This document shows, piece by piece, positions 3,989 through 24,565 of a stretch of DNA of 64,000 nt. A program made the position numbers and the translations under genes. The notes below the pieces were generated by a model. The model was not told the origin of the DNA, made no database searches, and saw only the letters and a list, made by a program, of their open reading frames with translations. Each line of letters starts with the position of its first letter. Position 1 is the first letter of the stretch. Source of the DNA: Methanomassiliicoccales archaeon (GTDB lineage: Archaea > Thermoplasmatota > Thermoplasmata > Methanomassiliicoccales > JAAEEP01); assembly GCA_013415695.1 (NCBI GenBank), contig JAAEEP010000002.1, positions 62,001 to 126,000 of the forward strand, written 5' to 3'.

Positions 3989-4165
3989 TTGCGTTGGGTT
4001 GTATTCCATGGCCGTAATTTGATCGAATGATGTGCCAGGTCCATTTCATGATGATATATCACAGAGGGTGATCATGCCTTGGAGGTGGTCAACAGCCTCG
4101 GAATATGTGATGGAGTTGACCGCCAAAGTATAAGTACGGTTTCTTGCATCCACGCTTGAAATTCG

Positions 4166-4243
4166 GCTCCCGTAGTGTAGACCGGTCAATCATTTCGGCC
4201 TTTCGAGCCGACGACTCGGGTTCAAATCCCGGCGGGAGCACCA
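4166..4243 (+). tRNA. tRNA-Glu (anticodon TTC), CCA encoded
   Basis: A complete cloverleaf can be drawn: acceptor GCTCCCG (4166-4172) pairs with CGGGAGC (4233-4239), discriminator A is at 4240, and an encoded CCA is at 4241-4243. The anticodon stem TCGGC/GCCGA encloses the loop CTTTCGA with anticodon TTC (Glu). The T arm contains GGGTTCAAATCCC. No intron is seen. An AT-rich AAAGTATAAG about 35 bases upstream could be its box A. It stands alone between the aIF1A operon and hdrA. Confidence 0.96.
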
Positions 4244-4270
4244 TATCACTCATCTCAAAATGGGTCTTTT

Positions 4271-6589
4271 TCATGATCTGTATATGGCTTCCATGGATTG
4301 GATGCTCTGATAGAATTTATCAAGCCTTGATGCCATTCCCTTGAAATGGGGAAGGTAGGCCTCGTAGTAGTAGATCCTGCGAGGGTCGATTCCCAGTTCT
4401 AACATGCTACATCTCAAGCAATCGACATGACTGGATATGCTATCATCTACCGTGCCCTTCGAGGCGTGAACTGTCCCGTCTCCTATGAATATCCCGGCGA
4501 TTCCCTTGTCAAAAGCATGCTTGAGATGCCTGGAATTGAGTCGGAAGACAGAAGGTATGCGTATGATCCTGACGCAGGAAGGATACTTGACACGGTTCAT
4601 GCCTGCGTTGTCAGCTGCCACATATCCTATGTTGCGGTCCAGAAACGCAATGATTCGAGGATCCCCATCGTCAACGCATCCATCTATCCTCGCAAGGAGT
4701 TCCTGGTCGTTGTTGCCCATGATGATGATGGCGTTCTCCGGGCAACTGTTTATGCATCGACCCAACCCGATGCAGGAGATGGGGTCGATGTTCACCGTCC
4801 CGTTGGAGTATATCGCACCGTGAGGACATGCCTGTAGACATCTCCCGCAACGATTGCACAATTCGCTCTCGATCGTGGCGAAGTCAGGCTCGATCTCAAT
4901 AGAGTTCAGCATCATCTCGGCCACCTTTGATGCGGTGGACTGGGCTTGCGCTATGGATTCCGTGATGTCCTTTGCTCCGTTTGCCGTCCCGCATACGAAT
5001 ATTCCGCGCGAGGTGGTGCAGCCTGGCTCGAGTTTCGGGTGTTTCTCCTTGATGAAGTACTCTGGGGTCGAATTCACATTGAGGGTCTTTGCGATCTCAA
5101 CGGTCCCCTCCGAGGGTAATATCGCGCAGGAAAGGACAACCATATCAGTGTCGATGTCGAGTATCTCACTTCCCAGGGTGTCCTCCAACCTGACCATCAG
5201 ATCGCCTCCTTTCTTGAGGACCTCCGACACCCGGCCTCTGATCAAACGCAACCCCTTCCCCTGAGCCTCCTGATAGTAGCTTTCATACGTTCCAAGCGTC
5301 CTCATGTCGGTGTAGCAGATGATGACTTCGATTCCGGGATTGTGCTCCATGATGTAGTTGGCGTGCTTCATCGCAATGATGCAGCAGATCTTGGAGCAGT
5401 ATGGTATGGAACCTGGTTTATTTTCTCTGGAACCCACGCATTGGACCATGATAATTCGGCGGGGTATCTCTCCATTGATTTCCAGTTTGCCTCTGGTGGG
5501 TCCATTGATCGCAAGCAGTCTTGCCAGTTCCATCTGGGTAAGAACCTCGGGATACTTACCGTAGCCTAGCTCAAAACGCTCACTGGGATCCATCTCTGCG
5601 TGGCCAGTGGCAATCACGATGGCACCGACTGAGATGGAGTCCTTGACAACCATCCTGGTGAGATCGATAGCGTGTGAAACGCACGTATCAACGCAGTCCT
5701 CGCACCTGTTGCATGCTTCTGGATCAATGACGTATGAGGGAGGAATAGACTGGGAGAACGGGCGGTAGATGGCCTTGCGAAGTGAGAGACCGACGTTCCA
5801 CTCGTCCGGTGCTGCGATCTTGCATGCATCGCTGCATTTACTACAGGACCTGCAAAGCTCGGGATCAACGTAAAAAGGTCCGGATTCAAGCTCGAGGGTG
5901 AACTCACCGGCGCGTCCTTTGCATCCGACCACACGGGTCAGTGTCTTAATCTCAACATGCTTATCCCTCGCCAATTCACCCATGAGCGGAGAAAGAGAGC
6001 ACATAGCACAGTCTTCCGACAGCTTTTCGGGAGATATGACCTTACCGACCTTCACCATGTTTCCACCTATGGTCGGGCTCTTCTCGATCAGGCAGGTCTC
6101 GATCCCCATCTTTCCAAGGCTTCGAGCTGCGGTAATGCCAGCTATTCCTCCTCCTATCACGGCCACCTTCTTGACAACGGGGATACTCGGGGTTTCATAT
6201 GGCTTCGCGTGCTGGATGGCATACACCGAGGAGCGTATGATGTCCAACGCCCTGCGTGTCGGATCCTCTGCGCTGATCCAGGCACATTGCTCTCGGACAT
6301 TTGCGATGTCCACCATGTGAGGATTCAGACCGCTGTCCCTAGCGCAGGACCGGAATGTGTGCTCATGTATGTTAGGTGAGCAGGCAGCGATCACAATACG
6401 ATCGAGTTTTTTCAATTTTATGCAGTTCTTGATCAGTTCCTGTCCTTCATCTGAACATAGGTACGGGACATCTTTTACCAATCCAACTTCTTCCCTTTGC
6501 AGCCCCTGCTTGATGCTGGAAATATCAATGGCATCGGATATATTGCCGCCGCAATGACATATAAAGACCCCGGTGGAGGATGGCCTCAC
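4271..6589 (-). CDS. hdrA: Heterodisulfide reductase subunit A with fused, cysteine-free MvhD-like domain
   Basis: 772 residues. The N-terminal GVFICHCGGNI and CSDEGQELI segments and the FAD/NAD motif VAVIGGGIAGITAA (143-156) identify HdrA, the flavin-based electron-bifurcating subunit of Hdr complexes. Ferredoxin-type clusters lie at 246-256 (CRSCSKCSDAC), 293-303 (CNRCEDCVDTC), 578-588 (CNRCGRCLQAC) and 606-616. Residues about 640-770 align with MvhD, the [2Fe-2S] electron-transfer subunit (IIAFL..AADNAGMNRVKYP..RIIRI, ELGIDPRRI), but every expected MvhD Cys is replaced. Translation starts at a GTG overlapping the hdrB stop (GTGA). The complex should be cytoplasmic. The natural disulfide or electron donor is not evident from the neighbours. 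Confidence 0.93.
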   Translation of the reverse strand: MRPSSTGVFICHCGGNISDAIDISSIKQGLQREEVGLVKDVPYLCSDEGQELIKNCIKLKKLDRIVIAACSPNIHEHTFRSCARDSGLNPHMVDIANVREQCAWISAEDPTRRALDIIRSSVYAIQHAKPYETPSIPVVKKVAVIGGGIAGITAARSLGKMGIETCLIEKSPTIGGNMVKVGKVISPEKLSEDCAMCSLSPLMGELARDKHVEIKTLTRVVGCKGRAGEFTLELESGPFYVDPELCRSCSKCSDACKIAAPDEWNVGLSLRKAIYRPFSQSIPPSYVIDPEACNRCEDCVDTCVSHAIDLTRMVVKDSISVGAIVIATGHAEMDPSERFELGYGKYPEVLTQMELARLLAINGPTRGKLEINGEIPRRIIMVQCVGSRENKPGSIPYCSKICCIIAMKHANYIMEHNPGIEVIICYTDMRTLGTYESYYQEAQGKGLRLIRGRVSEVLKKGGDLMVRLEDTLGSEILDIDTDMVVLSCAILPSEGTVEIAKTLNVNSTPEYFIKEKHPKLEPGCTTSRGIFVCGTANGAKDITESIAQAQSTASKVAEMMLNSIEIEPDFATIESELCNRCGRCLQACPHGAIYSNGTVNIDPISCIGLGRCINSCPENAIIIMGNNDQELLARIDGCVDDGDPRIIAFLDRNIGYVAADNAGMNRVKYPSCVRIIRIPSVFRLNSRHLKHAFDKGIAGIFIGDGTVHASKGTVDDSISSHVDCLRCSMLELGIDPRRIYYYEAYLPHFKGMASRLDKFYQSIQSMEAIYRS

Positions 6590-7524
6590 GGACCGACCCC
6601 CAATATACCCATATTCTCCAGAAGAGGTTCGACTGGGACGGCATGCATGTCCAATCCAATGACATCGTAGGGATCAGCTCCCAACAAGAGCGCTACCAGC
6701 TCTGTCACATATAGGACTGGGATGTCCTTCTCCACGCCCAGGGTTTCCATAATGTTCTCCTGGTAGAGGTCCAGGTTCAAGGTGCATCCGGCACACTGGG
6801 TGATGATAACGTCTGGATTAACTTCGATTATGCCTGAGTATTTCCGCTTAAGAACTGATCTGGGATAGTCAGTGTTGCAGAGCGTATGGTGGAAGCCGAC
6901 CCCACAGCACAGGAACCTATCCGGGTAATCAAGAGTACGACAACCAAATCCCTCAGCTATGTCATCAAGGACTCTTGGCCTCTCGAAGTTGCCAGATGCG
7001 ACCTCGCGATAGAAGATATTAGAATAATGACAACCATGGTGAGTGACCGCCCTCACCCCTTTCATCGAGTGGACAGACCTTGCAAGGAGATGATTGAGCC
7101 TCTCGCGCAGGATCTCCGAGACGTGATTGATTGAAACCTGTCCTTGATATTCGATACCAGCTTCCCTGAGAGCTGCAATGGCCCTATCTCCAACGGGTGT
7201 TTCCTCATCAAGGAGACCCTTGCAGCTTTTCAGGTTGGCATAGCATGTCGGGCAAGTGCAAATCATGTTGGTCTTGTCTGAGTGGGACACCAATGAGAAA
7301 TTCCTCGCGTTCAGGGCGACATTGGTCAACAAAGGTATCACTCCAATATGATATCCGCATCCAGTGCATGACGATTGTCGGGGATCGTCAGCGAAATTGG
7401 CACCGATTCTCTCTAATATGTAGCGGAGAGCCCGTTCAATGCCCGGATACCAGCTGCCAGCCTGGCAGCTCTTGAAAAGGTAGAAATCATCTCCAGGTAT
7501 GTTCTTCCCCACCGTACCGTACAT
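6586..7524 (-). CDS. hdrB: Heterodisulfide reductase subunit B
   Basis: 312 residues with two CCG domains, which hold the noncubane [4Fe-4S] clusters that reduce heterodisulfides. The second domain is complete: GCHYSN, then FLCCGVGFHHT, then QCAGCTLNLD. The first is atypical: C20, then SSCTGCGYH at 51-59 where classical HdrB has an adjacent Cys pair, then CTCPTC at 89-94. The protein follows hdrC by 12 bases and overlaps hdrA by four. It supplies the catalytic subunit of the HdrABC complex. The variant first motif may reflect a subfamily difference or a changed cluster. Confidence 0.92.
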   Translation of the reverse strand: MYGTVGKNIPGDDFYLFKSCQAGSWYPGIERALRYILERIGANFADDPRQSSCTGCGYHIGVIPLLTNVALNARNFSLVSHSDKTNMICTCPTCYANLKSCKGLLDEETPVGDRAIAALREAGIEYQGQVSINHVSEILRERLNHLLARSVHSMKGVRAVTHHGCHYSNIFYREVASGNFERPRVLDDIAEGFGCRTLDYPDRFLCCGVGFHHTLCNTDYPRSVLKRKYSGIIEVNPDVIITQCAGCTLNLDLYQENIMETLGVEKDIPVLYVTELVALLLGADPYDVIGLDMHAVPVEPLLENMGILGVGP

Positions 7525-7536
7525 ATCGTATCGCCC

Positions 7537-8109
7537 CTATCGAAAACCGGTCTTCTCAAGCAGGATCCTCACCTCGATCAGGGCGTCTTTGGGTAGCGGG
7601 GTCGCACGAGCTGTATCACCTGCGTAACCCAGTCGCTCCTTTCGCTTTGAATTGTCAAAGCACCTTTCCCTTGTACGACCCCCCAGATTCTCAAGTGGAA
7701 GGAGCAAGGTCGAAGGCAGTATGGTCTCTCCAGTTTCGTAGAGGTTCTTCTTCAGCGACGCTTCGATCTGCCTTATTTCATTATTCAGGGGCATCCTCTG
7801 CAACGACTGGCTCCTTAGCGCGAGTATGGCGTTTGCCACGCTGTTATCCCTTGGACACCGTGCAGCACAAGAGAAGCACTGACCGCATCTCCATATCTCG
7901 TTGCCAGCGACGAGATTCTCTACCTCTCCCATCATCAAACGTCGCATGATGTCTCGGGGGGTAAAATCCTCATAGATCAATGCGGCAGGACAGCTGGCAG
8001 AGCACCTTCCGCATTGAATGCATTTCTGAAATCCGCTATATGAGTCGATTTTCATATCATCCAATTTAGATGATATCCTATCATGATCCTGCATTCTGCA
8101 ATATGTCAT
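7537..8109 (-). CDS. hdrC: Heterodisulfide reductase subunit C
   Basis: 190 residues with two [4Fe-4S] motifs: CIQCGRCSASCP at about 30-41 and CGQCFSCAARCP at about 75-86. HdrC carries electrons between HdrA and HdrB. The C-terminal ~90 residues are longer and less conserved than the core. It is the first gene of hdrCBA; its ATG is at 8107-8109 and an AT-rich stretch around 8185-8193 on the minus strand is a candidate box A. In methanogens HdrABC reduces CoM-S-S-CoB; related complexes in non-methanogens use other disulfides or carriers. Confidence 0.92.
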   Translation of the reverse strand: MTYCRMQDHDRISSKLDDMKIDSYSGFQKCIQCGRCSASCPAALIYEDFTPRDIMRRLMMGEVENLVAGNEIWRCGQCFSCAARCPRDNSVANAILALRSQSLQRMPLNNEIRQIEASLKKNLYETGETILPSTLLLPLENLGGRTRERCFDNSKRKERLGYAGDTARATPLPKDALIEVRILLEKTGFR

Positions 8110-8203
8110 TAGCTCAAACCCCCCATTTCAAGCTAGATCTCTGCTGAGGCGATTCTACCTTCCTTATGGTATTCTACACTTGAGAAAATAAGTCTTGTGG
8201 GTT

Positions 8204-8309
8204 TGAATAATGGGAAAATCCGCACTATTCACCCATCCTCCATTATCCTGAAAACTCCTTTTTGACCCTGAATAGTCACGAACTAAGATCATTTTTTTTA
8301 GAATAGTTC
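8204..8309. promoter_or_regulatory. Repeat-rich region upstream of hdrCBA
   Basis: The 276-base space between hdrC and the next gene holds the heptamer GAATAGT three times: inverted at 8224-8230, direct at 8270-8276 and direct at 8301-8307. The last lies inside GAACTA...TAGTTC (8280-8285 and 8304-8309). ATAATGG near 8206 is mirrored by CCATTAT near 8240. The spacing and orientation suggest regulator sites for the hdr promoter, but this is only a pattern reading. Confidence 0.3.
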
Positions 8310-8339
8310 ATCAACCTTCAAGGAAAATGAAGAAAAAGT

Positions 8340-8356
8340 GGGAGGGGGCGACTCCC
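8340..8356 (-). terminator. Possible terminator after the secreted protein gene
   Basis: On the minus strand GGGAG and CTCCC pair across a 7-base loop, followed by the T-rich tract CTTTTTCTTCATTTTCC. It lies about 30 bases after the stop codon at 8386. The stem is short. Confidence 0.35.
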
Positions 8357-8385
8357 TAACTCAAACGATGGGACCCCGTCCATGT

Positions 8386-8784
8386 TCATTCTTCGGGTGT
8401 GTCTCCAGAGTACTGGTGAGCCCACTCGTATTGCCAGGACCACTCATTCTGGTTCTGCACCTGGTCTCCGCCTAGGGTCTCTATATCTCCTTCACATCCG
8501 TTTTGGTTGCTGTTCTGATACTGGTATGACCACTGGTACTGATTCTGTGCCATATCGCCATCGCCGCAGAGTTCTTGGTTCTCGCAGCAACTCCCGTCGC
8601 GAAGTTGATCCTTTGTCATATTCTGATTTTGATCACAATCACCGCTCCCTTGAGCCATCATTTGGCCGTCCGAGAGTGCTGACGTGGAGGAAACCCCGTC
8701 CGCAGACACCACGGAAACACCGATGATGCCGATGACGGCAACGATCCCCAATATGGCGAGGATCTTGGTGGTAATGCTTGTCAT
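8386..8784 (-). CDS. Small secreted Gln/Asn/Trp-rich protein
   Basis: I do not recognise a family. The chosen ATG (8784) has GGAGGTG five bases upstream; the frame is open further back but that extension lacks sense. The 132-residue product starts with a hydrophobic signal segment (ILAILGIVAVIGIIGVSVVSADG). The rest is low-complexity and acidic, rich in Q, N, W and Y, with tandem-like QNQ and QYxW motifs (YQWSYQYQNSNQ, NEWSWQYEWAHQY) and several Cys (CDQN, SCCENQELC, NGC). It looks like an exported, possibly disulfide-bonded or aggregating surface peptide. Its neighbour upstream is a membrane-anchored HTH regulator on the same strand. Confidence 0.7.
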   Translation of the reverse strand: MTSITTKILAILGIVAVIGIIGVSVVSADGVSSTSALSDGQMMAQGSGDCDQNQNMTKDQLRDGSCCENQELCGDGDMAQNQYQWSYQYQNSNQNGCEGDIETLGGDQVQNQNEWSWQYEWAHQYSGDTPEE

Positions 8785-8954
8785 TTGTGCACCTCCATCG
8801 ACGCGGTTCTCCCGCATCACTGTCTCTCTCGAGTGTGTGAAAAAGCCCTTGAATGTTCCCTTGAAATGGATGAAAAGCATTTCATCAGGGTGAAATAAGG
8901 TATTGAAAAGTACATCAATGAATTGATATGTGCAAATTATTCTTTGAGCCCGGG

Positions 8955-9518
8955 TCAATCACGATCGATGTCAATTCGCACCTTGTTGGTCATTCCGTGC
9001 CTCTCTTTCACGATGAGGCCCTTTTCCTCAAGACGGTCAAGGACCCGGGTGACCTTCGCATTAGACATCTTCGTTTTCTCGATCAGATCCTTCTGCAGCG
9101 ATTCTCCCCCCGCATCCCTCAAAGCGAGGAACATTCGTCTCTCATCACCATCGAGCAAGCGAAGAACAAGCCCTTCTACCTCTCCCCCTTCGGATGAATC
9201 TCCTTTGGAATCGGACCTAACCTCAATTGTATCTGATGTAGCAGTAGGAATGGCATCCTCTCTGACCCTCTCAAGCCCGGTGGAGCTTATTCGATGGTTT
9301 TCGCCAAGGGTGGCGTAGGTTACCCCTAACCCCAGCAGAAATGCTCCTGCAATTCCAAGGATGATGTTCTCCAGGCCATACCAGATGTAGCTGTCACCTC
9401 CACCCTGATGTCCTCCGCCCACCTGGTAGAATATCAGGGATACAGCGATCATTATGATTCCTGATAGAATGGCGATCGTGGAGATGATAGTCCGCTTGCG
9501 AGGTCCTTTCTTCGTCAT
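8955..9518 (-). CDS. Membrane-anchored winged-helix (MarR-like) regulator
   Basis: 187 residues from the ATG at 9518; a TTG at 9566 would add 16 residues. The N-terminus is basic, followed by two hydrophobic helices (IISTIAILSGIIMIAVSLIF and a second around IILGIAGAFLLGLGV) separated by a Gly/His-rich extracellular loop. After a charged linker rich in Ser, Asp and Glu comes a winged helix: MFLALRDAGGESLQKDLI, MSNAKVTRVLDRLEEKGLI, VKERHGMTNKV. Many archaea carry such membrane-bound HTH proteins, probably sensors at the membrane acting on nearby promoters. The 170-base gap before the secreted protein gene is a plausible target. Confidence 0.75.
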   Translation of the reverse strand: MTKKGPRKRTIISTIAILSGIIMIAVSLIFYQVGGGHQGGGDSYIWYGLENIILGIAGAFLLGLGVTYATLGENHRISSTGLERVREDAIPTATSDTIEVRSDSKGDSSEGGEVEGLVLRLLDGDERRMFLALRDAGGESLQKDLIEKTKMSNAKVTRVLDRLEEKGLIVKERHGMTNKVRIDIDRD

Positions 9519-9595
9519 TGTACCTACCGAATATGAGGGATCGGCCTTTTCAGATTTGCGGGGCAACTCTCAGAATTGGATATCTCCTCTCTTGA

Positions 9596-10108
9596 TCAGA
9601 TGTCCCTTCCTTTTATTGAATAATCTTTGACACCAAGGGCGGAGGCGATATTCTTGAGCACCTTTACCTCGTCCTTGCTGATGACCTCACCACCTATTCC
9701 CATGAATTCGTCGGTGAGAAATGCATTGGCCACCTCCTCCCCGATGAATAGCAGCCATCGTTTGAATCCCTCTGTCTCCCCCTGATCGGAATTCCCAGCA
9801 AGTATTGATGACGCATTCTCGCATAGTTTGACGGTCCCTTCATGATAGCTTGCCCTTCTTTTGCGAAGGCTGCGATGCCCATCTTCTTTTTTCCTTTCGG
9901 ATTCCGCGAATGGGGTTATCTCTTTAACAAGCTGGTTGCCGATGAAGTTACCGGTCATGTCAGCGATGGCGTCCTTCATGGCCCTCATCTCCCTTCGTCC
10001 TCCGAACAACCTGGTTGTGCTGGCTATCATCACCGAATGCCCGATCCTGCTTGGGAGACTCGCAAGCAATTGCCAGTCTGCATCGCTAAAATCCTTCCTT
10101 CCACTCAA
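9596..10108 (-). CDS. Uncharacterised protein coupled to ABC exporter
   Basis: 170 residues, family not recognised. No signal peptide or membrane helix is clear. It begins with FSDADWQLLASLPSRIGHSVMIAS, has a highly basic central stretch (SERKKEDGHRSLRKRRASYHEG) and ends with an acidic helix-turn region (GGEVISKDEVKVLKNIASALGV). It overlaps the stop codon of the upstream ABC transporter subunit by four bases, so it is co-translated with the exporter pair. A regulatory or cargo-related role is possible but unproven. Confidence 0.6.
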   Translation of the reverse strand: MSGRKDFSDADWQLLASLPSRIGHSVMIASTTRLFGGRREMRAMKDAIADMTGNFIGNQLVKEITPFAESERKKEDGHRSLRKRRASYHEGTVKLCENASSILAGNSDQGETEGFKRWLLFIGEEVANAFLTDEFMGIGGEVISKDEVKVLKNIASALGVKDYSIKGRDI

Positions 10109-11928
10109 ATGGTCACCTCCTCCGTGTCATCGAAGGGAATGACCTCCGCAACCCTCCCCTTGTACTGGGTCATGTACAGATTGTAGTAGAATCCCCTTCT
10201 ATCCATGAGCTCCTCGTGAGTTCCCCGCTCCACGATCTCTCCTTCATTAATGACAAGTATCTGGTCAGCATCTTTAATGGTGCTCAGTCGATGGGCTATG
10301 ACAAAACTGGTCTTTCCCTCCTGCAAGTTATCAAGGGCCTCCTGGATAGCCTTCTCGGTTCTGGTGTCAACATTGCTCGTGGCCTCGTCCAAGATTAGCA
10401 TTCGGGGGTTGGCCACCATGGCACGGGCGATGGTGAGTAGCTGCCTTTGACCCTGGCTGAGATTATTCCCTCTTTCACTCAGGACCGTTTCATAACCCTG
10501 TGGCAAACGGGTTATGAACTCGTGGCAGTTTGCTTTCTTGGCGGCCTCTATGCATTCCTCGTCAGTAGCCCCTTCCCTTGCATATTTGAGGTTTTTCATC
10601 ACAGTGTCCGAGAACAGGAAAGCCTCTTGCAGCACGACTCCGACCTGCTTCCGTAGGCTCTCCTGAGTCACGTCGTATACGCTCTGTCCATCGATGACTA
10701 TCGTTCCGCTATCGATGTCATAGTACCTGGTGAGGATATTGATGATAGTGCTTTTACCCGCCCCCGTGGGACCGCAGAGACCGATCATCTGGCCCGGCTT
10801 CGCCTCGAAGGTGTTCTTCTTCAGGACTTTCCTCCCAGGAATATAAGAGAAGTCAACCTCCTCGAAGACCACATGTCCCTCGACAGGTTTCATTGGCAAG
10901 GCGCTTGGCCTGTCAACTATCTGGGGCTTCTCATCAATGATCTTGAAAACCCTACTCGCTCCAGTTGCTGCCGAGATTATGTAGTTGTAGTTGGCAAATA
11001 TGCTTATCAGAGGGAAGATGAAGAGGAGCGTGAGCGAAAGGAAGCTGGACAGGGTGCCAACGCTCACTATATCCCTTAACACGAAGACCGAACCGATAAG
11101 GCCGACTATGGCAAGGTCCAGATAGGTGCTCATCACGGTCAAGGGGTTTATCACTAGAGACAGTATCTGGGCCTTGGCCCCGCTGTTCCTAGCTCTCACA
11201 CTCGCATCTTCCAAAGAATCTGCTGCGTGCTTCTGCTGCCTGTAGGCGATGACTGTCCTTTCCCCATCCAGGGTTTCCTCCATTATTCCATTGAGATCGG
11301 CCAAATTATCCTGCAGAGCAGCGAATGCTGGACCCGCGAATTTGCTGAGGAACCAGACCAGACCCAGGATCAGAGGAATAACCAATAATGCTATGATGGC
11401 GAGTTCCCAGCTGAGGAACACCATGGATATGACCGAGATCACCAGCATGAAAGCCCCAAGTATCAGTGTTCCGATCGGCGCCTGGTAAAGGACAGAGACG
11501 GTATCCATATCGTTGGTGATCCTGCTCATCAGCTCTCCTATGGGCTGCCTGTCGAAGAAGTTCAACGATAGTGTCTGAATGTGGTCAAACAGCTCCTTCC
11601 TTAGTTGGTAGAGAGCCGTCTGAGTTATGTCCGCCAACCACCTATAGGCTATGAAAAGCGTAATGAATGACACGAAGGCGGCTATCAACATGTAAAGGGC
11701 GGTGGTTAGGAGTGCATCCTTGTCCATCACCGTGGTAAGATTCTCGATCGCCTCTCCCAGAAGAACGGAGATCGAGAGGAACGATAACGCCCCTATGAAG
11801 AAGAGTACTACCACGCCAGCAAGCTTGGTCTTCTTTATCGTTAGATATCTGAGTAATCTGACCATAGTCTCCAGCCTTGAGACGCTGGCCTCTTCATGAC
11901 CATTTGTTCCAGTGATATCGCGGGTCAT
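10105..11928 (-). CDS. ABC exporter subunit, canonical NBD
   Basis: 607 residues: six membrane helices in the first ~330 residues (type IV exporter fold, as in MsbA and BmrCD), then a nucleotide-binding domain. Walker A is CGPTGAGKSTII, the signature NLSQGQRQLLTIARA, and Walker B plus catalytic Glu LILDEATSNVD; H-loop VIAHRLST. All catalytic residues are intact. It overlaps its partner gene upstream by four bases and the 170-residue protein downstream by four. The two subunits should form a heterodimer exporting a hydrophobic compound, lipid or peptide. The substrate is unknown. Confidence 0.9.
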   Translation of the reverse strand: MTRDITGTNGHEEASVSRLETMVRLLRYLTIKKTKLAGVVVLFFIGALSFLSISVLLGEAIENLTTVMDKDALLTTALYMLIAAFVSFITLFIAYRWLADITQTALYQLRKELFDHIQTLSLNFFDRQPIGELMSRITNDMDTVSVLYQAPIGTLILGAFMLVISVISMVFLSWELAIIALLVIPLILGLVWFLSKFAGPAFAALQDNLADLNGIMEETLDGERTVIAYRQQKHAADSLEDASVRARNSGAKAQILSLVINPLTVMSTYLDLAIVGLIGSVFVLRDIVSVGTLSSFLSLTLLFIFPLISIFANYNYIISAATGASRVFKIIDEKPQIVDRPSALPMKPVEGHVVFEEVDFSYIPGRKVLKKNTFEAKPGQMIGLCGPTGAGKSTIINILTRYYDIDSGTIVIDGQSVYDVTQESLRKQVGVVLQEAFLFSDTVMKNLKYAREGATDEECIEAAKKANCHEFITRLPQGYETVLSERGNNLSQGQRQLLTIARAMVANPRMLILDEATSNVDTRTEKAIQEALDNLQEGKTSFVIAHRLSTIKDADQILVINEGEIVERGTHEELMDRRGFYYNLYMTQYKGRVAEVIPFDDTEEVTI

Positions 11929-13754
11929 GTCAGATCACTCCTTCTCAGCCCCCCTAACTGGGATTCGAATATTTCGCGGTAAAGCGGGCTTGAGGTCATG
12001 AGTTCGGTGTGGCTTCCAAAAGCCACCATCTCACCGCCGTCCAGAAGAACGATCTTATCGGCGTTGAGTACCGTGCTTATCCGTTGGGCGACCACCAGCT
12101 TGGTGGTCCCCTTCAACAGCTCATCCATCGCCTCCTGGATTCGTGTCTCGGTGGCGACATCCACAGCACTGGTGCTATCATCAAGTATCAGTATACGAGG
12201 CTTGACAGTGATCGCCCTAGCAATCGATATTCTCTGTCTCTGTCCTCCAGAGAAATTGGCGCCTCTCCTAGCGACCCTTGCTTCATAGCTCTCTGGTATC
12301 GCCGAGATGAAGCCATCGGCGTCTGCGGCCCTTGCCGCCTCTATGATCTCATCGTATGTCGCCTCTGGCTTGCCGAAAGAGATGTTGCCCTTGGCGGTTC
12401 CGCTGAAAAGGACTGCCTCCTGAAGTGCGATTCCCACGATCTCCCTCAGTCTCTCCTGGGACATATCGCGTACGTCAATACCATCTATCGTGACCTTCCC
12501 CTCGGTCACATCGTAGAACCTGGGGATGAGGTTGACAAGGGTGGATTTGCCAGCGCCTGTAGCGCCTAGGAACGCAACGGTCTGTCCAGGTTCGGCAACC
12601 AGATTGATGTTTCTGATAGATTCTCTGCCATTTACACCCTCATAGCTGAAGGAGACATTATCGAAGACGATCCTCCCCTTGATATCGGATGGGTCAACTG
12701 GTCTTGGTCTGGGCGGATCTTTGATGTCGGGTTGGGAATCAATGAGCTCACCCAGTCTTGCAGCCGAGGCTTCCGCAGAGGTGATCTGAGGAAGCACGAT
12801 TGAGAGTATCCAAAGCTGGGCCAGTATTATGAAGAAGTACTGGCTGAACGCTATCAACTCTCCCACGTTGGTGGGTCCGCCATCGATGATCTCAACGCCG
12901 CCAAACCACACCACCATGGCTGTGGCTACACCCAATATCATGAAGACGGATGGTATTATCAGTGCCACCGAGCGAAGGGGTTTCATGGACGTACCCTTGA
13001 GCGCCTCATTAGCACTGTCGAACCTCTTCGATTCGTATTCCTCTCTGACGAAGGTCTTCACCACTCTGATGCCTGCTAGATCCTCCTGGAGAATGTCGTT
13101 TAGGTCGTCCGTCCTCTCCTGCCTTACCTTGTATTGCTTCTGCAGGAGATATGCAATGCCGCCGAGTATCAGCCCCCCAGTGGGAATGACGAATAGGAAT
13201 ATCCAGACAAGACTGGGGCTGTTGTACCAAACAAGGATCACCGCAATAATTATCTGGAAACCGGCCGCCAGTAAGAATCTCACTGAGAGCTGCACAGCCA
13301 GGTTGATCTGGTAGATATCGTTGGTCAGGCGAACCATCAGCTCTCCAGTTGGGTATTCATCCAGGTTCTTGAATGAGAATCTCTGGACCTTTCGATACAT
13401 CCTGGTCCTCAGGTAGTTGGCGGTACCCTCGGCGAACAGGATCGCAAAGACCAGATTTAGCATGGTGAATGTGCCTGAAATGAAGGCGAATAGTATCATT
13501 AGAAGAGCACTGTCCAGGACCGCATTCAGATCTCCCTCTACGATCCCGTAGTTGATGATGTTGGATATTTGAGCCGGCACCAGCATGAGGAAAATTCCAG
13601 CAAGAAGAACGAATATTTGGGAGATGACAAGGGATTTCCACGCCTTACGGTAGATACCCATCATCCTCAGCAGCGCCGGAAAGAAAGCCACTTCTATCCT
13701 CCCCCAGGATGTCCCTTGCTTCTTTCTCTCATGAGGGAGAGCATCCTGATCCAT
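11925..13754 (-). CDS. ABC exporter subunit, degenerate NBD
   Basis: 609 residues with six N-terminal membrane helices and a C-terminal nucleotide-binding domain. Walker A is LGATGAGKSTLV, the signature NFSGGQRQRISIARA. Walker B ends LILDDSTSAVD, so Asp stands where the catalytic Glu should be, and the H-loop reads VVAQRIST with Gln in place of His. This is the degenerate-site partner typical of heterodimeric exporters. A minus-strand box A (ATTATTTTATG, about 13779-13789) lies about 26 bases before transcription near the ATG, implying a leaderless message separate from the HxlR gene upstream. Confidence 0.9.
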   Translation of the reverse strand: MDQDALPHERKKQGTSWGRIEVAFFPALLRMMGIYRKAWKSLVISQIFVLLAGIFLMLVPAQISNIINYGIVEGDLNAVLDSALLMILFAFISGTFTMLNLVFAILFAEGTANYLRTRMYRKVQRFSFKNLDEYPTGELMVRLTNDIYQINLAVQLSVRFLLAAGFQIIIAVILVWYNSPSLVWIFLFVIPTGGLILGGIAYLLQKQYKVRQERTDDLNDILQEDLAGIRVVKTFVREEYESKRFDSANEALKGTSMKPLRSVALIIPSVFMILGVATAMVVWFGGVEIIDGGPTNVGELIAFSQYFFIILAQLWILSIVLPQITSAEASAARLGELIDSQPDIKDPPRPRPVDPSDIKGRIVFDNVSFSYEGVNGRESIRNINLVAEPGQTVAFLGATGAGKSTLVNLIPRFYDVTEGKVTIDGIDVRDMSQERLREIVGIALQEAVLFSGTAKGNISFGKPEATYDEIIEAARAADADGFISAIPESYEARVARRGANFSGGQRQRISIARAITVKPRILILDDSTSAVDVATETRIQEAMDELLKGTTKLVVAQRISTVLNADKIVLLDGGEMVAFGSHTELMTSSPLYREIFESQLGGLRRSDLT

Positions 13755-14224: not shown

Positions 14225-14257
14225 TCTAATATCTTTATGATACAATGGAGGAATAAG

Positions 14258-15871
14258 ATGTTCTGTTTCCAGTGCGAGGAGACCCTCAACGGTCAGGGTT
14301 GCACGAAGCGAGGAATCTGCGGCAAGCCATCGGAAGTTGCAGAGCTTCAGGATCTGCTGATCAATATAATGAAGGGTATGGCATATAAGGCTGAGATATC
14401 CAATCTAAATTTCGATCTTGGAAAGGTGGATGCCTTCATAATCGACAGCCTTTTCTCGACCATTACCAATGTGAACTTCGACCCAACGCACTTCCAAGAA
14501 TCTGTGACTCAAGCTCTAGCACTTAGGGATTCGATAGACGTGGATGATACTGATTCATTACCAGAAGCCTGCACTTGGGTCCCCAGCGGTCCTGAGGACA
14601 TCCAGGCAAAAGCAAGGGAGGTCGGAGTACTTTCCACCGACAACGTTGATGTCCGCTCTCTCAGAGAGCTGCTGATATATGGGCTCAAAGGGATTGCAGC
14701 CTACTACCATCATGCCTCAGTCCTCGGCTATGAGGACTCCGAGGTCACTGACTTCATCAGACGGGCACTTGCCTCCACTCTCAAGGAGTTGACCGTAGAC
14801 GAGATGACCGCCCTGGTGCTCGAGTGTGGCACGATAGGCGTCAGGACAATGGCCCTTCTCGACAAGGCAAATACTTCCACCTATGGTAATCCCGAGATAA
14901 CCAACGTTGATATTGGAACTAGAGGCCGACAGGGAATACTGATCAGCGGTCACGATCTTTTAGACCTTGAAGAGCTGCTGAAGCAGACAGAAGGTCAAGG
15001 GATCGACATTTACACCCATGGTGAAATGCTTCCAGCGAACGCCTATCCTGAGTTGAAGAGGTACGAACACTTGGTGGGTAACTACGGAGGTTCTTGGTGG
15101 CGGCAGAAGGAGGAGTTCGAGAGCTTCAACGGTCCCGTACTCATGACCACCAACTGCCTGGTTCCCCCTAAGGATTCGTACAAGGACCGGGTGTACACCA
15201 CCAGCATCGTGGGCTACCCTGGGCTGAAACATATCCCAGGAAAGACAGGGAAGGAAAAGGACTTCTCAGTTATCATCGAGCACGCCAAGTCATGTGACCC
15301 GCCTCAACAGATCGAATCTGGGAAATTGATAATCGGTCTCGCTCACAAGACGGTGATCGACATGGCCGGGGACGTTCTTGAACTCGTTAGTCAGGGCAAG
15401 ATCAAAAGGTTCGTCGTGATGGCCGGTTGTGACGGTAGGCACAAGGACCGGGATTACTACACCAAGTTCGCGGAGGCTTTGCCATCGGATACCATCATAT
15501 GCACTGCGGGTTGTGCGAAGTACCGTTACAACAAGCTTCCACTGGGAGATATAGAGGGTGTTCCGAGAGTGCTGGACGCTGGACAGTGCAATGATTCCTA
15601 CTCCTTGGTGGCCATTGCTATGGCGCTGGCTGAGGCATTGGATGTAGGGATAAACGACCTTCCGATATCCTATAACATCGCCTGGTACGAACAGAAGGCT
15701 GTCCTGGTTCTCCTCGCCCTGCTGAGCCTGGGCGTGAAGGATATAACCTTGGGGCCCAACCTTCCAGCGTTTGTTTCCCCCAATGTTCTTAATGTCCTTG
15801 TCGACAAGTTCAATATCCGGAAGAACACCTCTGTGGATGAGGATCTACCATTGCTAGTCCCTGAGGTATAG
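14258..15871 (+). CDS. hcp: Hybrid cluster protein (hydroxylamine reductase)
   Basis: 537 residues starting [10 protein letters not shown], with GGAGG seven bases ahead of the ATG; an earlier in-frame ATG at 14237 would only add seven residues. N-terminal cluster Cys are C3, C6, C15 and C21 (CxxC-x8-C-x5-C, class I spacing). Hybrid-cluster ligands are visible in [38 protein letters not shown] and the Glu of AWYEQKA. Length fits full-size Hcp with the three-helix insertion. Hcp reduces hydroxylamine and nitric oxide in anaerobes. It is followed after eight bases by a ferredoxin-domain protein that probably feeds it electrons. Confidence 0.96.
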
Positions 15872-15879
15872 GGGTAGAA

Positions 15880-16713
15880 ATGAAGAGGAGCATAATCAGC
15901 ATCGATGAGGACCTCTGTGATGGCTGCGGCCAATGCGCAGATGCCTGTCCCGAGGGTGCCATACAGATAATCGACGGGAAGGCCCGTTTGGTGAGTGGGA
16001 TATTCTGTGATGGCCTGGGGGCATGCATCGGTGACTGCCCGACTGGGGCGATATCCATAAAGGAAAGGGAAGCAGAGGTTTACGATGAGCGCAGGGTGAT
16101 GGAGAACATCATCAAGAAGGGAGAGGGAACCATCAGGGCGCATCTCAAGCATCTGAAGGATCATGGGGAAACTGGTTACCTGAAGGAAGCCCTTGAATTC
16201 CTGGAAGAAAAAGGAATTGATGTGGATTTCGAAGGCTTAAAGAAACCCCAAGCGAAAATACCCATGGTTTCATCAGAGTTTCCGGGTGGGGGAAAAGCGA
16301 GCTCGTTAATAGTTACGGAGGGGTCAGAGCTCAGTCACTGGCCGGTCCAGATGCATCTTATCTCCCCTACCGCCCCACAGTACAGGGATGCTGATCTCGT
16401 CCTTGCAGCGGACTGTGTGGCATTCGCCAGCGGGAGGTTCCATCAAGATTTCCTGAAGGGGAAGAGCCTCGCCATAGCCTGTCCAAAGCTTGACTCTGGT
16501 CTTGATCGATATCTTGAAAAGCTGGTATCACTCATCGACGAGGCCCGCGTAAGGACAATCACCGTGGTGACCATGGAGGTACCGTGCTGCCAGGGCCTTA
16601 CCAGATTGGTGAAGGAGGCAATAGGAAGAGCAGAGAGGAAGGTGCCGTTGGAGCTCGTAGTGATCAGTACAGCTGGAGAGGTCTTGAAAAGGGAATGGAT
16701 CAACCTGAGCTAA
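15880..16713 (+). CDS. Ferredoxin-domain protein, probable Hcp partner
   Basis: 277 residues. Residues 8-60 hold two ferredoxin motifs: CDGCGQCADACPEGA complete, and CDGLGACIGDCPTGA with one Cys replaced as often seen in 2[4Fe-4S] relatives. The C-terminal domain (about 135-275) has SHWPVQMHL, ADLVLAADCVAFA, IACPKLD and EVPCCQGL, a conserved pattern in iron-sulfur proteins found beside hcp in many anaerobes. It has no membrane segment. As the gene directly after hcp, it is the likely electron donor or maturation partner. The exact role is not established. Confidence 0.85.
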   Translation: MKRSIISIDEDLCDGCGQCADACPEGAIQIIDGKARLVSGIFCDGLGACIGDCPTGAISIKEREAEVYDERRVMENIIKKGEGTIRAHLKHLKDHGETGYLKEALEFLEEKGIDVDFEGLKKPQAKIPMVSSEFPGGGKASSLIVTEGSELSHWPVQMHLISPTAPQYRDADLVLAADCVAFASGRFHQDFLKGKSLAIACPKLDSGLDRYLEKLVSLIDEARVRTITVVTMEVPCCQGLTRLVKEAIGRAERKVPLELVVISTAGEVLKREWINLS

Positions 16714-20650: not shown

Positions 20651-22690
20651 TCACTTCCTCATCAACAAGACCACAGCGGCGATCACTATCACCACGATCA
20701 CGATGATGATGATGGCCATGATCTCAATGGAGAGTCCACCATCACCACCTGCCTCCGAAATCTCGAAGTTGGCGGAGCTCATGCCGAAGACCTCGGGATC
20801 GTCAATGGCGACGATCTTGATCTTGAAGTCCTCTCCGGTGGCTTGACCCTCGCTGATGTTCCAGCTGAAACTACCATCGTTCGCGGTGGTAGCGGAAATT
20901 GTGGTGTTCAACGAACCGTCCTTGTACAGCTCGATCTTCACGTTCTCCACATCTCCGGTCGAGTTCCAGGTGATGTTGTGTATATCACCCTTCACCCAGT
21001 TCTCACCGCCATCTGGCGAGGTAACGGTGATGGTGGGCGGAATTATCGCATCGAAGCTGGCGTTGGCTGAATTCACGGTGTACCCGAAGGTGAACAGGCA
21101 CTCAACAGTGTAACTGCCCGCAACAGACGGTACATATTCGATGCTTGCCACACCACTGGCGTTGGTCGTCGCTTCCCCTATCTTATCGTCACCGATCCAG
21201 AAAGTGATGTTCTGACCGCCGATGGGGGTCTGATCGCTGATGGTGGCGCTGATCTCCACAGAATCGCCAACGGCGATCTCGCTCTCGCTCGCTTCCGCTT
21301 CGATGTCAACTACCCAGTTGAGAACGATGTCTGAAACCCCTTTTATTTTGAAGGATTTACTGGGCAGATCGCCCTCGAGCTTCAGAGGCGGGTACATGTC
21401 GGTAAGAGGTTCTTCGTCGAACATGTTCGCCACTATGATGTCATCATTCTCGTCCACTTCATCGAAGGTAAGAGTCTTGTTGAATCCATCTGCAGCGTAC
21501 ACGGTGATGGTGTAGTTCAGACCAGTGGCGTACTCGTGAGCTCCTATTGACTCGGGATCGTCAACGTAACCACATAGCCTCCATAGCGGAATGCCTGAGT
21601 AGTTACCGTAAACCTCATTGTGGCAGGCTGCTCCACTATCGAAGGTTGCGCGGTCCATCTCCATCCTGAAAGCTCCTGTCAGGTTGAGCTGATAATCGAC
21701 CACGCCCTGCAGAATGGTCATCGATGAAACCATCTTCGCCCATAAGTGTCCATCGGTCAGGGGGTCATCCTCGCCTATCAGGACGATTCTGGGCACTTCA
21801 TCCTCATCCATGGGCACTCCATTCATGTCGTAGGCAAGTACCATCTCCACGGAATCATTCCAAAGTATCTGGTCGTAGGTGTATGTCAAATTGTAGTAAC
21901 CATCTCTTGATTTGACCAACATCCCTTGACCCTCAGAAATCCCTCCAACGGCTTCCAGAAGATAGGTAACGTTTACACCGGTGTATGTGAATGGCCCTTC
22001 AATCGTACCTGATGATTTCTCGAAACTACCGTTAGCAGTATATGCAGTCATGTTCCTGATCATGAGGTCGCTGTACACAATGGACCAAGAATCATTCGTA
22101 AGAGTAACATTCCAGTTCGCTGTGTTTACAGTGATTGTCTGGACATACTTCGCCCACCTCTTACTTGCAGAGCTTGCCACCTCGTCCAGTGTTGTTGTCG
22201 CCGCACTATCGTTATTGTCATAAATCTCATCGTCGGGAAGGAATGCAATCAGAAGACCACTTGTCCAGGTTGGGACAAGGTCGCCCTCAAACTCGTATGC
22301 GAGTATCATATCTCCCTGGGTAGACGGATCGGGCCAAATATCGTACACATTGTTGTAGGAATATGTGGTGTTCCAATCATCCGAGGAAGTCACGGTTATG
22401 GTGTCACCGGGCTCCATTCCACCAACAAGTTCGACAAGGTCCGAGACCAAAACGCCGGTGTAGTTGCCCTCTCCGCCCCAGCCGACGCTCTTCTCGTACA
22501 TGCTCTTTCCTGAGACCGCGGTCATTGCTTGAAGCTCGCTAAGGCTCAGTGTTTCTGTACCAGTCTTCCCGATTATGTTAACCTCCACTGTGGTATCAGC
22601 AGCTACCGAAGTATTAGATAAGAAAGCTACTCCCAACACGGAGAACATGGAGAAGACTACTAGAAATGTCAGAATCTTTGTAAGATTCAT
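20651..22690 (-). CDS. Cell-surface protein with three SUOX-fold-like modules and C-terminal anchor
   Basis: 679 residues: signal peptide (to about 31), then three copies of a module resembling the sulfite-oxidase/molybdopterin-binding fold. Landmarks are NYTGVLVSDLVELVGGMEPGD at about 76, TYTGVNVTYLLEAVGG with SRDGYYNLTY at about 240-275, and YSGIPLWRLCGY with AADGFNKTL at about 365-410. An Ig-like domain (about 470-545) and a domain starting TSPDGGENWVKGD follow. The end is a Gly-rich spacer plus a hydrophobic helix and MRK tail, a typical archaeal membrane anchor. Many N-glycosylation sequons occur. SD AGGAGG precedes the ATG. No Moco-ligating Cys is evident, so a binding rather than catalytic role is likely. 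Confidence 0.75.
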   Translation of the reverse strand: MNLTKILTFLVVFSMFSVLGVAFLSNTSVAADTTVEVNIIGKTGTETLSLSELQAMTAVSGKSMYEKSVGWGGEGNYTGVLVSDLVELVGGMEPGDTITVTSSDDWNTTYSYNNVYDIWPDPSTQGDMILAYEFEGDLVPTWTSGLLIAFLPDDEIYDNNDSAATTTLDEVASSASKRWAKYVQTITVNTANWNVTLTNDSWSIVYSDLMIRNMTAYTANGSFEKSSGTIEGPFTYTGVNVTYLLEAVGGISEGQGMLVKSRDGYYNLTYTYDQILWNDSVEMVLAYDMNGVPMDEDEVPRIVLIGEDDPLTDGHLWAKMVSSMTILQGVVDYQLNLTGAFRMEMDRATFDSGAACHNEVYGNYSGIPLWRLCGYVDDPESIGAHEYATGLNYTITVYAADGFNKTLTFDEVDENDDIIVANMFDEEPLTDMYPPLKLEGDLPSKSFKIKGVSDIVLNWVVDIEAEASESEIAVGDSVEISATISDQTPIGGQNITFWIGDDKIGEATTNASGVASIEYVPSVAGSYTVECLFTFGYTVNSANASFDAIIPPTITVTSPDGGENWVKGDIHNITWNSTGDVENVKIELYKDGSLNTTISATTANDGSFSWNISEGQATGEDFKIKIVAIDDPEVFGMSSANFEISEAGGDGGLSIEIMAIIIIVIVVIVIAAVVLLMRK

Positions 22691-22722
22691 GGCTATCCTC
22701 CTAAGGGTTCAGAACTCGATAT

Positions 22723-22748
22723 GAATATAAAAACATAACGATTTTCGT
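22723..22748 (-). promoter_or_regulatory. TATA box and upstream Lrp-type site of surface protein gene
   Basis: On the minus strand TTTATATTCAT (22723-22733) is box A, giving transcription near 22702. Immediately upstream lies ACGATTTTCGT (22738-22748, read on plus), the 11-base core of the archaeal Lrp/Ptr2 consensus GGACGATTTTCGTCC. A site just upstream of the TATA/BRE is where Ptr2 acts as an activator. Confidence 0.5.
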
Positions 22749-22768
22749 AATCTAGTCACCATCACTAT

Positions 22769-24565
22769 CTACGAATAGCAAAGGACCTCGATGTATGCCA
22801 CGTATTTGACAAATCTTGCGCCCGCCGACAGGTATACGTTACCGCCCTGTCCCTTACAAGAGGTCGCAAGGCAATCCTCGTTACTATAGCCCTCGTCTTC
22901 AGGAAGGAAGGCGGTACGGAAACCCTCATCCCACTCGGGGGGCATCTCCCCCTCGAAGCTGTATGCCAGTATGAATGGGCCCTGAATCGAGAGCCAGGTG
23001 GAATTCGGATAGACGTTTCCGTAGCAGAAATCCTGGTAGTATCCATCAATGCTCTTCACACGGAGCGTGTCGTTCACATTCATTCCACCAACGAGTTCTA
23101 TTAGGTCCGCGATCAGCACGCCAGTGTAGTTACCTTTGTCTCTCCAGTTGCCGAAATTGTTCTCGTAAGAACTGTATCCTTCAACCGGGGTCATGGCGAG
23201 CAGGTCGCTCAGGTTCACGGTCACGCTACCATCGGGTCCGGAGATCAATATGGTCAGAGATTCTGGCTGCACCGGCTCGACCTCTACCACTTCCCAATTG
23301 ATCGAAGTTGGTGTCACCGTGAATACCAGGAAATGATAGAAACCACCATCATCCAGTGGAACGTAGAGGTTGCCCCCCGCACCACCGCTGATGAAGTAAT
23401 CGGTTCCGTTCCTGAAGGTGTGATTGAACATGTGGACATGTCCATTCAATACGATTTCCACATCATACTCGTCGACGATCGACTGGAATTCCTGACAATC
23501 ATTCGGATCGTCCAAATGGTGGTCCTCCCCCTCACGTGGATCGTAGGACGGAACGTGCGAGAAGATGATCGCCCTCATATCTGTCGACTGATCCAGCAGC
23601 TGTCTCAACCATGTGAACTGATCTTGAGTAATGTTCTGTGATGAAGAATCGATCGATATGAACCTGCAGTCGCCCCGATCGAAGTAGTAATCCCCTGTCT
23701 CAAAGTAATCGTAGAATATCGTATCGTTCGCCATCACATCGTGGTTGCCAGGGGTGACATGAAGATCGGCCTCGAGACCTTCAACATGGGAAACGAATGT
23801 GTCCAGCAACCCCTCGGTCGCTCTAGGGACCGTATCTCCAAGATGCAGAACGAATTCTATGCTGCGATTGTTCATTTCTTCGACAACCGCATCTAGCACC
23901 AGGTTGTTACCTTGAGAATCACCCATCACCGCGAAGGTGAATACCTGATCTCCCTTGGTGAGGACGAGGTTCTCGGCATTTCTCACCCAGCGCGATCCGG
24001 CTGAAAGGTAGACATGGCCGCCCTGTCCCTCGCAGGAGGTGTTCAGGCAGTCCTGATTGCTGTACTCCCCGTCATCAGGCATGAAGATGATCATGGGCCC
24101 CTCCTCCCATTCCGGAATCCGGGTCCCGTTGAACTCGTAGGCGAGGACCATATTGCCCTGGATTGATGGATCGGACCACTCGTTCATCACATTTCTCCAA
24201 CAGTAGGTCTGGTTGTATCCGTCTGTGGCGTAAACAGTGACATTGTCTCCCTCGGATATTCCCCCTATGAGATCAACCAGGTCGGATACGTTAACCCCTC
24301 GATAGATACCGTGCCCTCTCCAGTTGCCGAAGAAGTTCTGGTAAGAGGAGAACGCCTCTATGGATTCCATGGAAAGGAGATCATTCATAGTGATGTCGAC
24401 CTCACTTTCGGGATCACCTTCGACTGATAACGAGAAAACTGCATCACCTTCGTTTCCTTCGTTGGTCAGGTAGAGAAATGCTAGCGGTGAGATGATTACT
24501 AGAAGCACCACGATCAAGGCGGCTAGTGCCTTTCTATTGACCGCTTGTCCCCCAGCTTCAGGCAT
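22769..24565 (-). CDS. Membrane-anchored metallophosphoesterase flanked by two SUOX-fold-like modules
   Basis: 598 residues: N-terminal signal anchor (about 13-33), module 1 (about 50-198), calcineurin-type phosphoesterase (about 208-420), module 2 (about 436-598). Phosphoesterase ligands: GDSQ (D216), LGDTV (D244), GNHD (N274, H275), SHVP (H337), GHVH (H376, H378). The two modules are near duplicates: each has FGNWR, YxGV...DL..L.GG, DGYxQ, and ends with a DCLxTSCxGQGGxVYLSAG segment holding a Cys pair. It should act outside the cell. The message is leaderless: box A is about 25 bases before the ATG, within an operator-like repeat shared with the divergent ECF gene. The phosphorylated ligand is unknown. 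Confidence 0.8.
   Translation of the reverse strand: MPEAGGQAVNRKALAALIVVLLVIISPLAFLYLTNEGNEGDAVFSLSVEGDPESEVDITMNDLLSMESIEAFSSYQNFFGNWRGHGIYRGVNVSDLVDLIGGISEGDNVTVYATDGYNQTYCWRNVMNEWSDPSIQGNMVLAYEFNGTRIPEWEEGPMIIFMPDDGEYSNQDCLNTSCEGQGGHVYLSAGSRWVRNAENLVLTKGDQVFTFAVMGDSQGNNLVLDAVVEEMNNRSIEFVLHLGDTVPRATEGLLDTFVSHVEGLEADLHVTPGNHDVMANDTIFYDYFETGDYYFDRGDCRFISIDSSSQNITQDQFTWLRQLLDQSTDMRAIIFSHVPSYDPREGEDHHLDDPNDCQEFQSIVDEYDVEIVLNGHVHMFNHTFRNGTDYFISGGAGGNLYVPLDDGGFYHFLVFTVTPTSINWEVVEVEPVQPESLTILISGPDGSVTVNLSDLLAMTPVEGYSSYENNFGNWRDKGNYTGVLIADLIELVGGMNVNDTLRVKSIDGYYQDFCYGNVYPNSTWLSIQGPFILAYSFEGEMPPEWDEGFRTAFLPEDEGYSNEDCLATSCKGQGGNVYLSAGARFVKYVAYIEVLCYS

Follow-up and report, generated by a model that had tools for sequence, protein, structure and literature searches.

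An hdrCBA operon in the 64,000-nucleotide stretch of Methanomassiliicoccales DNA analysed here (hereafter referred to as the window) encodes a heterodisulfide reductase subunit HdrA with a fused C-terminal MvhD/FlpD-like domain in which all six cluster-cysteine columns of MvhD hold other residues. The operon probably specifies a soluble, accessory HdrCBA that belongs to the ferredoxin-type (HdrA1B1C1-like) branch, is fed by ferredoxin and carries an MvhD arm that would be redox-dead but structural or docking in nature.

The three genes lie on the minus strand and form one operon in the order hdrC (7537..8109, 190 aa), hdrB (6586..7524, 312 aa) and hdrA (4271..6589, 772 aa, GTG start), with a four-base overlap between the hdrB stop and the hdrA start. 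The leading gene, assigned from the ORF list and profile matches, encodes an HdrC with both 4Fe-4S motifs intact. HdrA, recognised from the ORF list and Pfam, is 36-38% identical to solved HdrA structures; its residues 1-640 match 5odc_A (6e-153), and HdrA structures are the top structural matches of the full-length model. Among the ORFs and domains of the window no hydrogenase genes adjoin hdrCBA, and a scan for promoters and terminators around the operon returned signals at or near chance. A tRNA-Glu (TTC) gene is found immediately past the 3' end of hdrA (4166-4243, plus strand). Elsewhere in the window, two neighbouring minus-strand ORFs (20654-24565) carry oxidoreductase molybdopterin-binding domains, fused in one case to Ig-like domains and in the other to a metallophosphatase domain.

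The initial annotation had aligned positions 4271-4672, as HdrA residues 640-770, with MvhD and had reported the loss of all cluster cysteines, and both observations hold. This segment encodes residues 640-772 on the minus strand, and the MvhD/FlpD-like domain within it (residues 645-766, 4292..4657) matches PF02662 over residues 646-766 and model positions 1-122/123 (5.5e-21, 75.3 bits, cut-off 22.3), or with 8.1e-22 when searched alone, while phmmer aligns it with the MvhD of 8rvu, 5odc, 9sfi and 7bkb. A domain-only AF2 model (pLDDT 88.5), built from an input alignment that contained cysteine-bearing FlpD sequences, matches the MvhD structures in fold: its four best Foldseek matches in the PDB are all MvhD subunits (TM 0.77-0.78; 0.77 for 5odc_D), well above the rest. 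With M. thermolithotrophicus HdrA and MvhD as the reference in a joint alignment, 0 of the 6 MvhD cysteine columns (CC..C, C, C, C) are kept, the window reading L, D, I, S, G and S. On the minus strand, LDRNI takes the place of MvhD CCNWC at residues 650-654 (4628..4642), PSV that of MCS at residues 679-681, with S680 in the cysteine column (4547..4555), and GDGTVHAS that of GGCHLGDC at residues 703-710 (4460..4483). Sequence and fold are thus those of the MvhD/FlpD family (PF02662) and the [2Fe-2S] cysteines are missing, which supports a domain that would be unable to hold an MvhD-type [2Fe-2S] cluster. The candidates for substitute ligands elsewhere in the domain, C672 and a CLRC motif (~724-727), are replaced in both available orthologues, leaving no conserved ligand set. 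Since the ten other FlpD domains of the host genome each retain most or all of the MvhD cysteines, the loss is specific, within this genome, to the HdrA copy linked to hdrCBA.

The two full-length orthologues, each with 60% identity to the window HdrA, show the same cysteine loss and the same hdrCBA order. Their records (Methanomassiliicoccaceae bin_107_IMCAS and Methanomassiliicoccales PtaU1.Bin124) have FlpD sequences identical to those of genomes G048 and G054, both Methanomassiliicoccales of a family other than that of the host. Both read LDN[KE]I at residues 650-654, and the motif YEAYLPH is conserved in the cysteine-less FlpD of these proteins. Selection was estimated between the two orthologues, the dS against the window being large or saturated; by NG86 (G048 versus G054), dN/dS is 0.33 (0.276/0.846) in FlpD, 0.22 in the HdrA core and 0.29 in the C-terminal ferredoxin. 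These results support retention of a folded domain under purifying selection, and the lost cysteines, the dN/dS values and the modelled fold agree with the earlier suggestion that the domain is only structural or regulatory and that electrons enter elsewhere. This HdrA type was found in 3 of the 147 Methanomassiliicoccales genomes searched, and a phylum sample of 390 contained no carrier beyond the host; because its spread across genomes is patchy, the distribution hints at horizontal transfer. No relatives were detected in viral contigs, and the viral structure library returned no relevant match.

Elsewhere in HdrA (minus-strand coordinates throughout), the N-terminal, thioredoxin-reductase-domain and inserted-ferredoxin clusters all keep their four cysteines, as in a standard HdrA core. 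The thioredoxin-reductase-domain ligands are C384, C398, C402 and C403 (5381..5440), and the inserted ferredoxin domain, our proposed entry point for ferredoxin, spans residues 246-303 (5681..5854) with both four-cysteine motifs intact. Also intact is motif I of the C-terminal ferredoxin, CNRCGRCLQAC (residues 578-588, 4826..4858). Three losses go beyond those initially reported: the ferredoxin-motif cysteine at 609, E356 and one HdrB cysteine. In motif II of the C-terminal ferredoxin, CIGLGRCINSC (residues 606-616, 4742..4774), alignment and model scoring identify Leu609 in place of the second cysteine. The three orthologues (window included) read CIGLGRC, CIGKGAC and CAGLGRC at this site, with L/K/L at 609 where 33 of 33 other HdrA rows of the alignment have Cys, so that the ligand set for the second C-terminal cluster is CLCC in the window and CKCC and CLCC in the others. 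C-x2-X-x2-C is the ligand pattern of the [3Fe-4S] sites of 7Fe ferredoxins, and because of this resemblance motif II may bind a [3Fe-4S] cluster or use a non-cysteine ligand. The same C-x-G-L-G-x-C pattern recurs in the window in the second motif, CDGLGACIGDCP, of a ferredoxin encoded at 15880-16710 (plus strand) beside a prismane/Hcp gene (14237-15868).

The remaining substitution concerns flavin chemistry. At the site of the bifurcation residue Glu356, the window HdrA has Ala356 (5522..5524); all three orthologues have Ala here, and every other HdrA row of the alignment has Glu. Lys408 (5366..5368), the counterpart of the flavin-stabilising Lys409, is kept. E356 and K409 (M. thermolithotrophicus numbering) have been proposed as a diagnostic pair for bifurcating HdrA (PMC12054007); the window HdrA has the lysine and lacks the glutamate. 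Hydrogenase electrons have been routed from MvhD through the C-terminal ferredoxin domain to FAD (PMC9012536), and in Elp-Hdr the N-terminal clusters precede MvhD and the C-terminal cluster acts as a shuttle (PMC12350162). The electron-input arm of the window HdrA is altered whichever of these routes holds.

Curated NCBIfam models were used to place the protein. It scores 915.6 bits on NF041891 (cut-off 1300), 761 on NF041778 (1400) and 697 on the HdrA2 model NF040770 (1100), and reaches none of the three cut-offs. The two best-scoring models, NF041891 (hdrA_Methbact) and NF041778 (hetero_SS_HdrA), are both named ferredoxin:CoB-CoM heterodisulfide reductase HdrA. Because it falls below both ferredoxin-type cut-offs, the window HdrA is a divergent relative of these families and not an equivalog. 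One of three control genomes, most plausibly M. acetivorans, scores above the NF041778 cut-off, and this model most likely includes the Methanosarcina HdrA1.

The expectations of the models were probed by scoring point variants of the last 433 HdrA residues, with changes given below in bits in the order NF041891/NF041778/HdrA2. Restoring the three cysteines of CC..C changed the scores by -9.1/-5.0/+10.2, and single restorations behaved similarly: -3.8/-1.3/+6.2 for D651C, -2.5/-3.3/+4.9 for I654C, -2.7/-0.7/+4.8 for S680C, 0.0/-0.8/+4.3 for G705C and -0.6/-1.2/+3.4 for S710C. Replacement of Ala356 by Glu gave -2.5/-2.9/+3.4, and the control K408A lowered the score on all three models. Scored by itself, the window FlpD segment reaches ~105 bits at NF041891 positions 641-761 and 44-58 bits on NF041778, confirming that both families possess this domain; cysteine-bearing FlpD domains score 42-52 bits on the FlpD region of NF041891 and 135-198 on HdrA2. 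HdrA2 scoring serves as a positive control because the iron and sulfide content of HdrA2 fits an Fe2S2 cluster in its MvhD domain (PMC5296606). As the ferredoxin-type models score down and HdrA2 up when the FlpD cysteines or E356 are restored, the absence of both is a built-in trait of the HdrA1-like models NF041891 and NF041778, and would hence be one of the ferredoxin-type branch. L609C, on the other hand, raised all three scores (+4.8/+4.8/+5.2), which indicates that the motif II cysteine is lost in the window type alone and kept by the ferredoxin-type models.

The window HdrA resembles the NF041891 and NF041778 families in its full-length match, in a C-terminal FlpD-type domain that disfavours cysteines, in disfavouring E356 and in keeping K409, but differs from them in its motif II and in its scores below both cut-offs. 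With the HdrA2 of Methanosarcina (NF040770; a type Ia HdrA-MvhD fusion) it has in common the domain order including the fused MvhD; HdrA2, however, has a cysteine-bearing MvhD domain and a model that wants E356, and the window HdrA has neither. We found no statement in the searchable literature that HdrA1 has a cysteine-less MvhD domain, and a review describes HdrA2 as extending into MvhD and HdrA1 as not doing so (PMC6019823). What appears to be new is that the curated ferredoxin-type HdrA models contain a cysteine-less MvhD domain and that, in the three-genome clade, the input arm is altered still further.

Alteration extends to HdrB. Alignment and model scoring show that its N-terminal CCG site (7357..7371, minus strand) reads S52-C53-T-G-C56 instead of CC, and the three orthologues all have SSC[TVI]GC, with an extra Cys three residues on. 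Of the two CX31-39CCX35-36CX2C motifs of HdrB, the C-terminal one is complete and the N-terminal one has SCxxC for CC. S52C raised the score on both HdrB models, of which the ferredoxin-type NF041780 (220.5) scores above TIGR03288 (152.8). NF041780 is itself almost indifferent to loss of the first C-terminal CCG cysteine. Because this HdrB is without one conserved CCG cysteine, the identity of the disulfide that it reduces is unsure.

A NiFe hydrogenase, MvhD and a long HdrA are encoded elsewhere in the host genome (contig C6), and Mvh-linked HdrA is known for the order Methanomassiliicoccales (PMC4153887). Hydrogen thus most likely enters the host via this separate system. All three genomes (host, G048 and G054) contain mcrA, and in none of them was an F420 ligase found, with three control genomes positive, which makes F420H2 an unlikely donor. 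With a separate Mvh-Hdr for hydrogen and F420H2 unlikely, reduced ferredoxin remains as the donor. It would deliver electrons to the intact inserted ferredoxin domain of HdrA, from where they may reach HdrC by way of FAD and the thioredoxin-reductase-domain cluster, and a disulfide, presumably CoM-S-S-CoB, would be reduced at HdrB. Hydrogenase electrons via MvhD would not be used by this HdrCBA; its fused MvhD domain would be a redox-dead remnant of the input arm, retained in HdrA for a structural or docking function, and normal bifurcation would not be expected because E356 is Ala. In M. acetivorans, deletion of hdrA1B1C1 led to slower growth and higher efficiency, attributed to less ferredoxin cycling and a CoM-SH imbalance (PMC9963511), and HdrA1B1C1 biochemistry has been described as needing validation (PMC6019823). 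By analogy, the window-type HdrCBA would fit a ferredoxin-oxidising overflow.

Among the alternatives, we give some weight, well short of an even chance, to the cysteine-less FlpD acting as a docking or regulatory module that recruits a donor other than free ferredoxin, such as an unlinked flavoprotein. The purifying selection on FlpD (0.33 versus 0.22 in the core) and conserved motifs such as YEAYLPH speak for such a role, as does the addition of fumarate-reductase-like subunits in the f9/f17 relatives with cysteine-poor FlpD, which makes other partners possible; no candidate partner gene, however, adjoins hdrCBA in the window, G048 or G054. Direct transfer of hydride from F420H2 to the HdrA flavin, as in Methanosarcina acetivorans HdrA2B2C2, would dispense with the MvhD domain altogether. 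HdrA2 does reduce F420, and no additional subunits are needed for HdrA2B2C2 to bifurcate electrons from F420H2 (PMC5296606). The host genome encodes two FrhB/FdhB-type proteins, but an FrhB_FdhB_C match is lacking in G048 and G054, the F420 ligase result applies to all three genomes, and HdrA2 is a more distant match to the window HdrA than the ferredoxin-type models are, so that we regard this donor as improbable.

Decay of the whole operon towards pseudogenes could also account for what FlpD, ferredoxin motif II, position 356 and HdrB have lost, and the number of cofactor ligands lost and the scarcity of the type in the order are compatible with it. Identical losses within open frames in three genomes at 60% identity, dN/dS well under 1 in every region and the integrity of all remaining HdrA cluster ligands nevertheless make decay very hard to credit. 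As for a sequencing or assembly artefact, nothing was found in its favour, the same loss recurs in two independent genomes, the MAGs coming from two families, and the chance of error is negligible. The ferredoxin-fed HdrCBA with a redox-dead MvhD arm is thus the reading we retain.

Compared with MvhD, VhuD and ElpC (PF02662), the window domain is alike in fold and sequence but cysteine-free and fused to HdrA. The HdrA subunits of the Mvh-Hdr, Fdh-Hdr and Elp-Hdr complexes (5odc, 7bkb, 8rvu) share with it a core of 36-38% identity and the N-terminal, thioredoxin-reductase-domain and inserted-ferredoxin cysteines; unlike these systems, the window HdrA has neither a hydrogenase nor a formate dehydrogenase encoded as its partner, lacks E356 and has one C-terminal ferredoxin cysteine fewer. 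HdrA-FlpD fusions in which all or most FlpD cysteines are gone (FFGDxLAY, FADDMCTY) also occur in the Thermoplasmata families f8, f20 and f9/f17. These form separate HdrA branches in which E356, K409 and ferredoxin motif II are intact, and in f8 and f20 no HdrBC adjoins, unlike in the window. In some f8 members Trp replaces the second cysteine of ferredoxin motif I, and f20 is without one thioredoxin-reductase-domain cysteine. A single origin for all sampled cysteine-less FlpD fusions was rejected, as the HdrA core tree needs three changes, at least two of them forced by well-supported branches; such fusions appear to have arisen separately in other Thermoplasmata. The cysteine loss first noticed in the window is thus real, but its implied restriction to the host genome does not stand, given the apparent ferredoxin-type family trait and these separate origins.

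A fused MvhD in HdrA is usually taken to be a module for electron input. Should the version in the ferredoxin-type branch be cluster-free, MvhD fusions could not be counted as electron inlets throughout the HdrA tree, and cysteine content together with E356 would offer a simple sequence test for hydrogenase-fed or bifurcating Hdr. More tentatively, the repeated turning of a fused MvhD input domain into a redox-dead scaffold might mark a general change of electron donor as HdrA evolved, seen in the HdrA1 branch, in the three-genome clade (with its possible [3Fe-4S] site and altered HdrB site) and in the separate Thermoplasmata branches, the retained domain taking on a new docking or gating role.

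Other HdrA-linked loci were noted during this comparison. The host itself carries, on contig C3 (locus L017, C3:117000-136999), an operon (4154-12293) for HdrC, HdrB, an FrdB-like protein, a TfrA/FrdA-like protein, HdrA with an intact FlpD and an HdrD-like protein, possibly a thiol:fumarate-reductase-type complex linked to HdrA; its relatives in L086, L091 and L092 have lost the FlpD cysteines. Loci L083-L085, L087-L090 and L093-L095, from two Thermoplasmata families, encode lone HdrA-FlpD fusions with a cysteine-less FlpD and no HdrBC seen adjoining. Several Thermoplasmata HdrA-like frames have an in-frame TAG or TGA inside the matched stretch, which could reflect pyrrolysine, selenocysteine or two adjoining genes.
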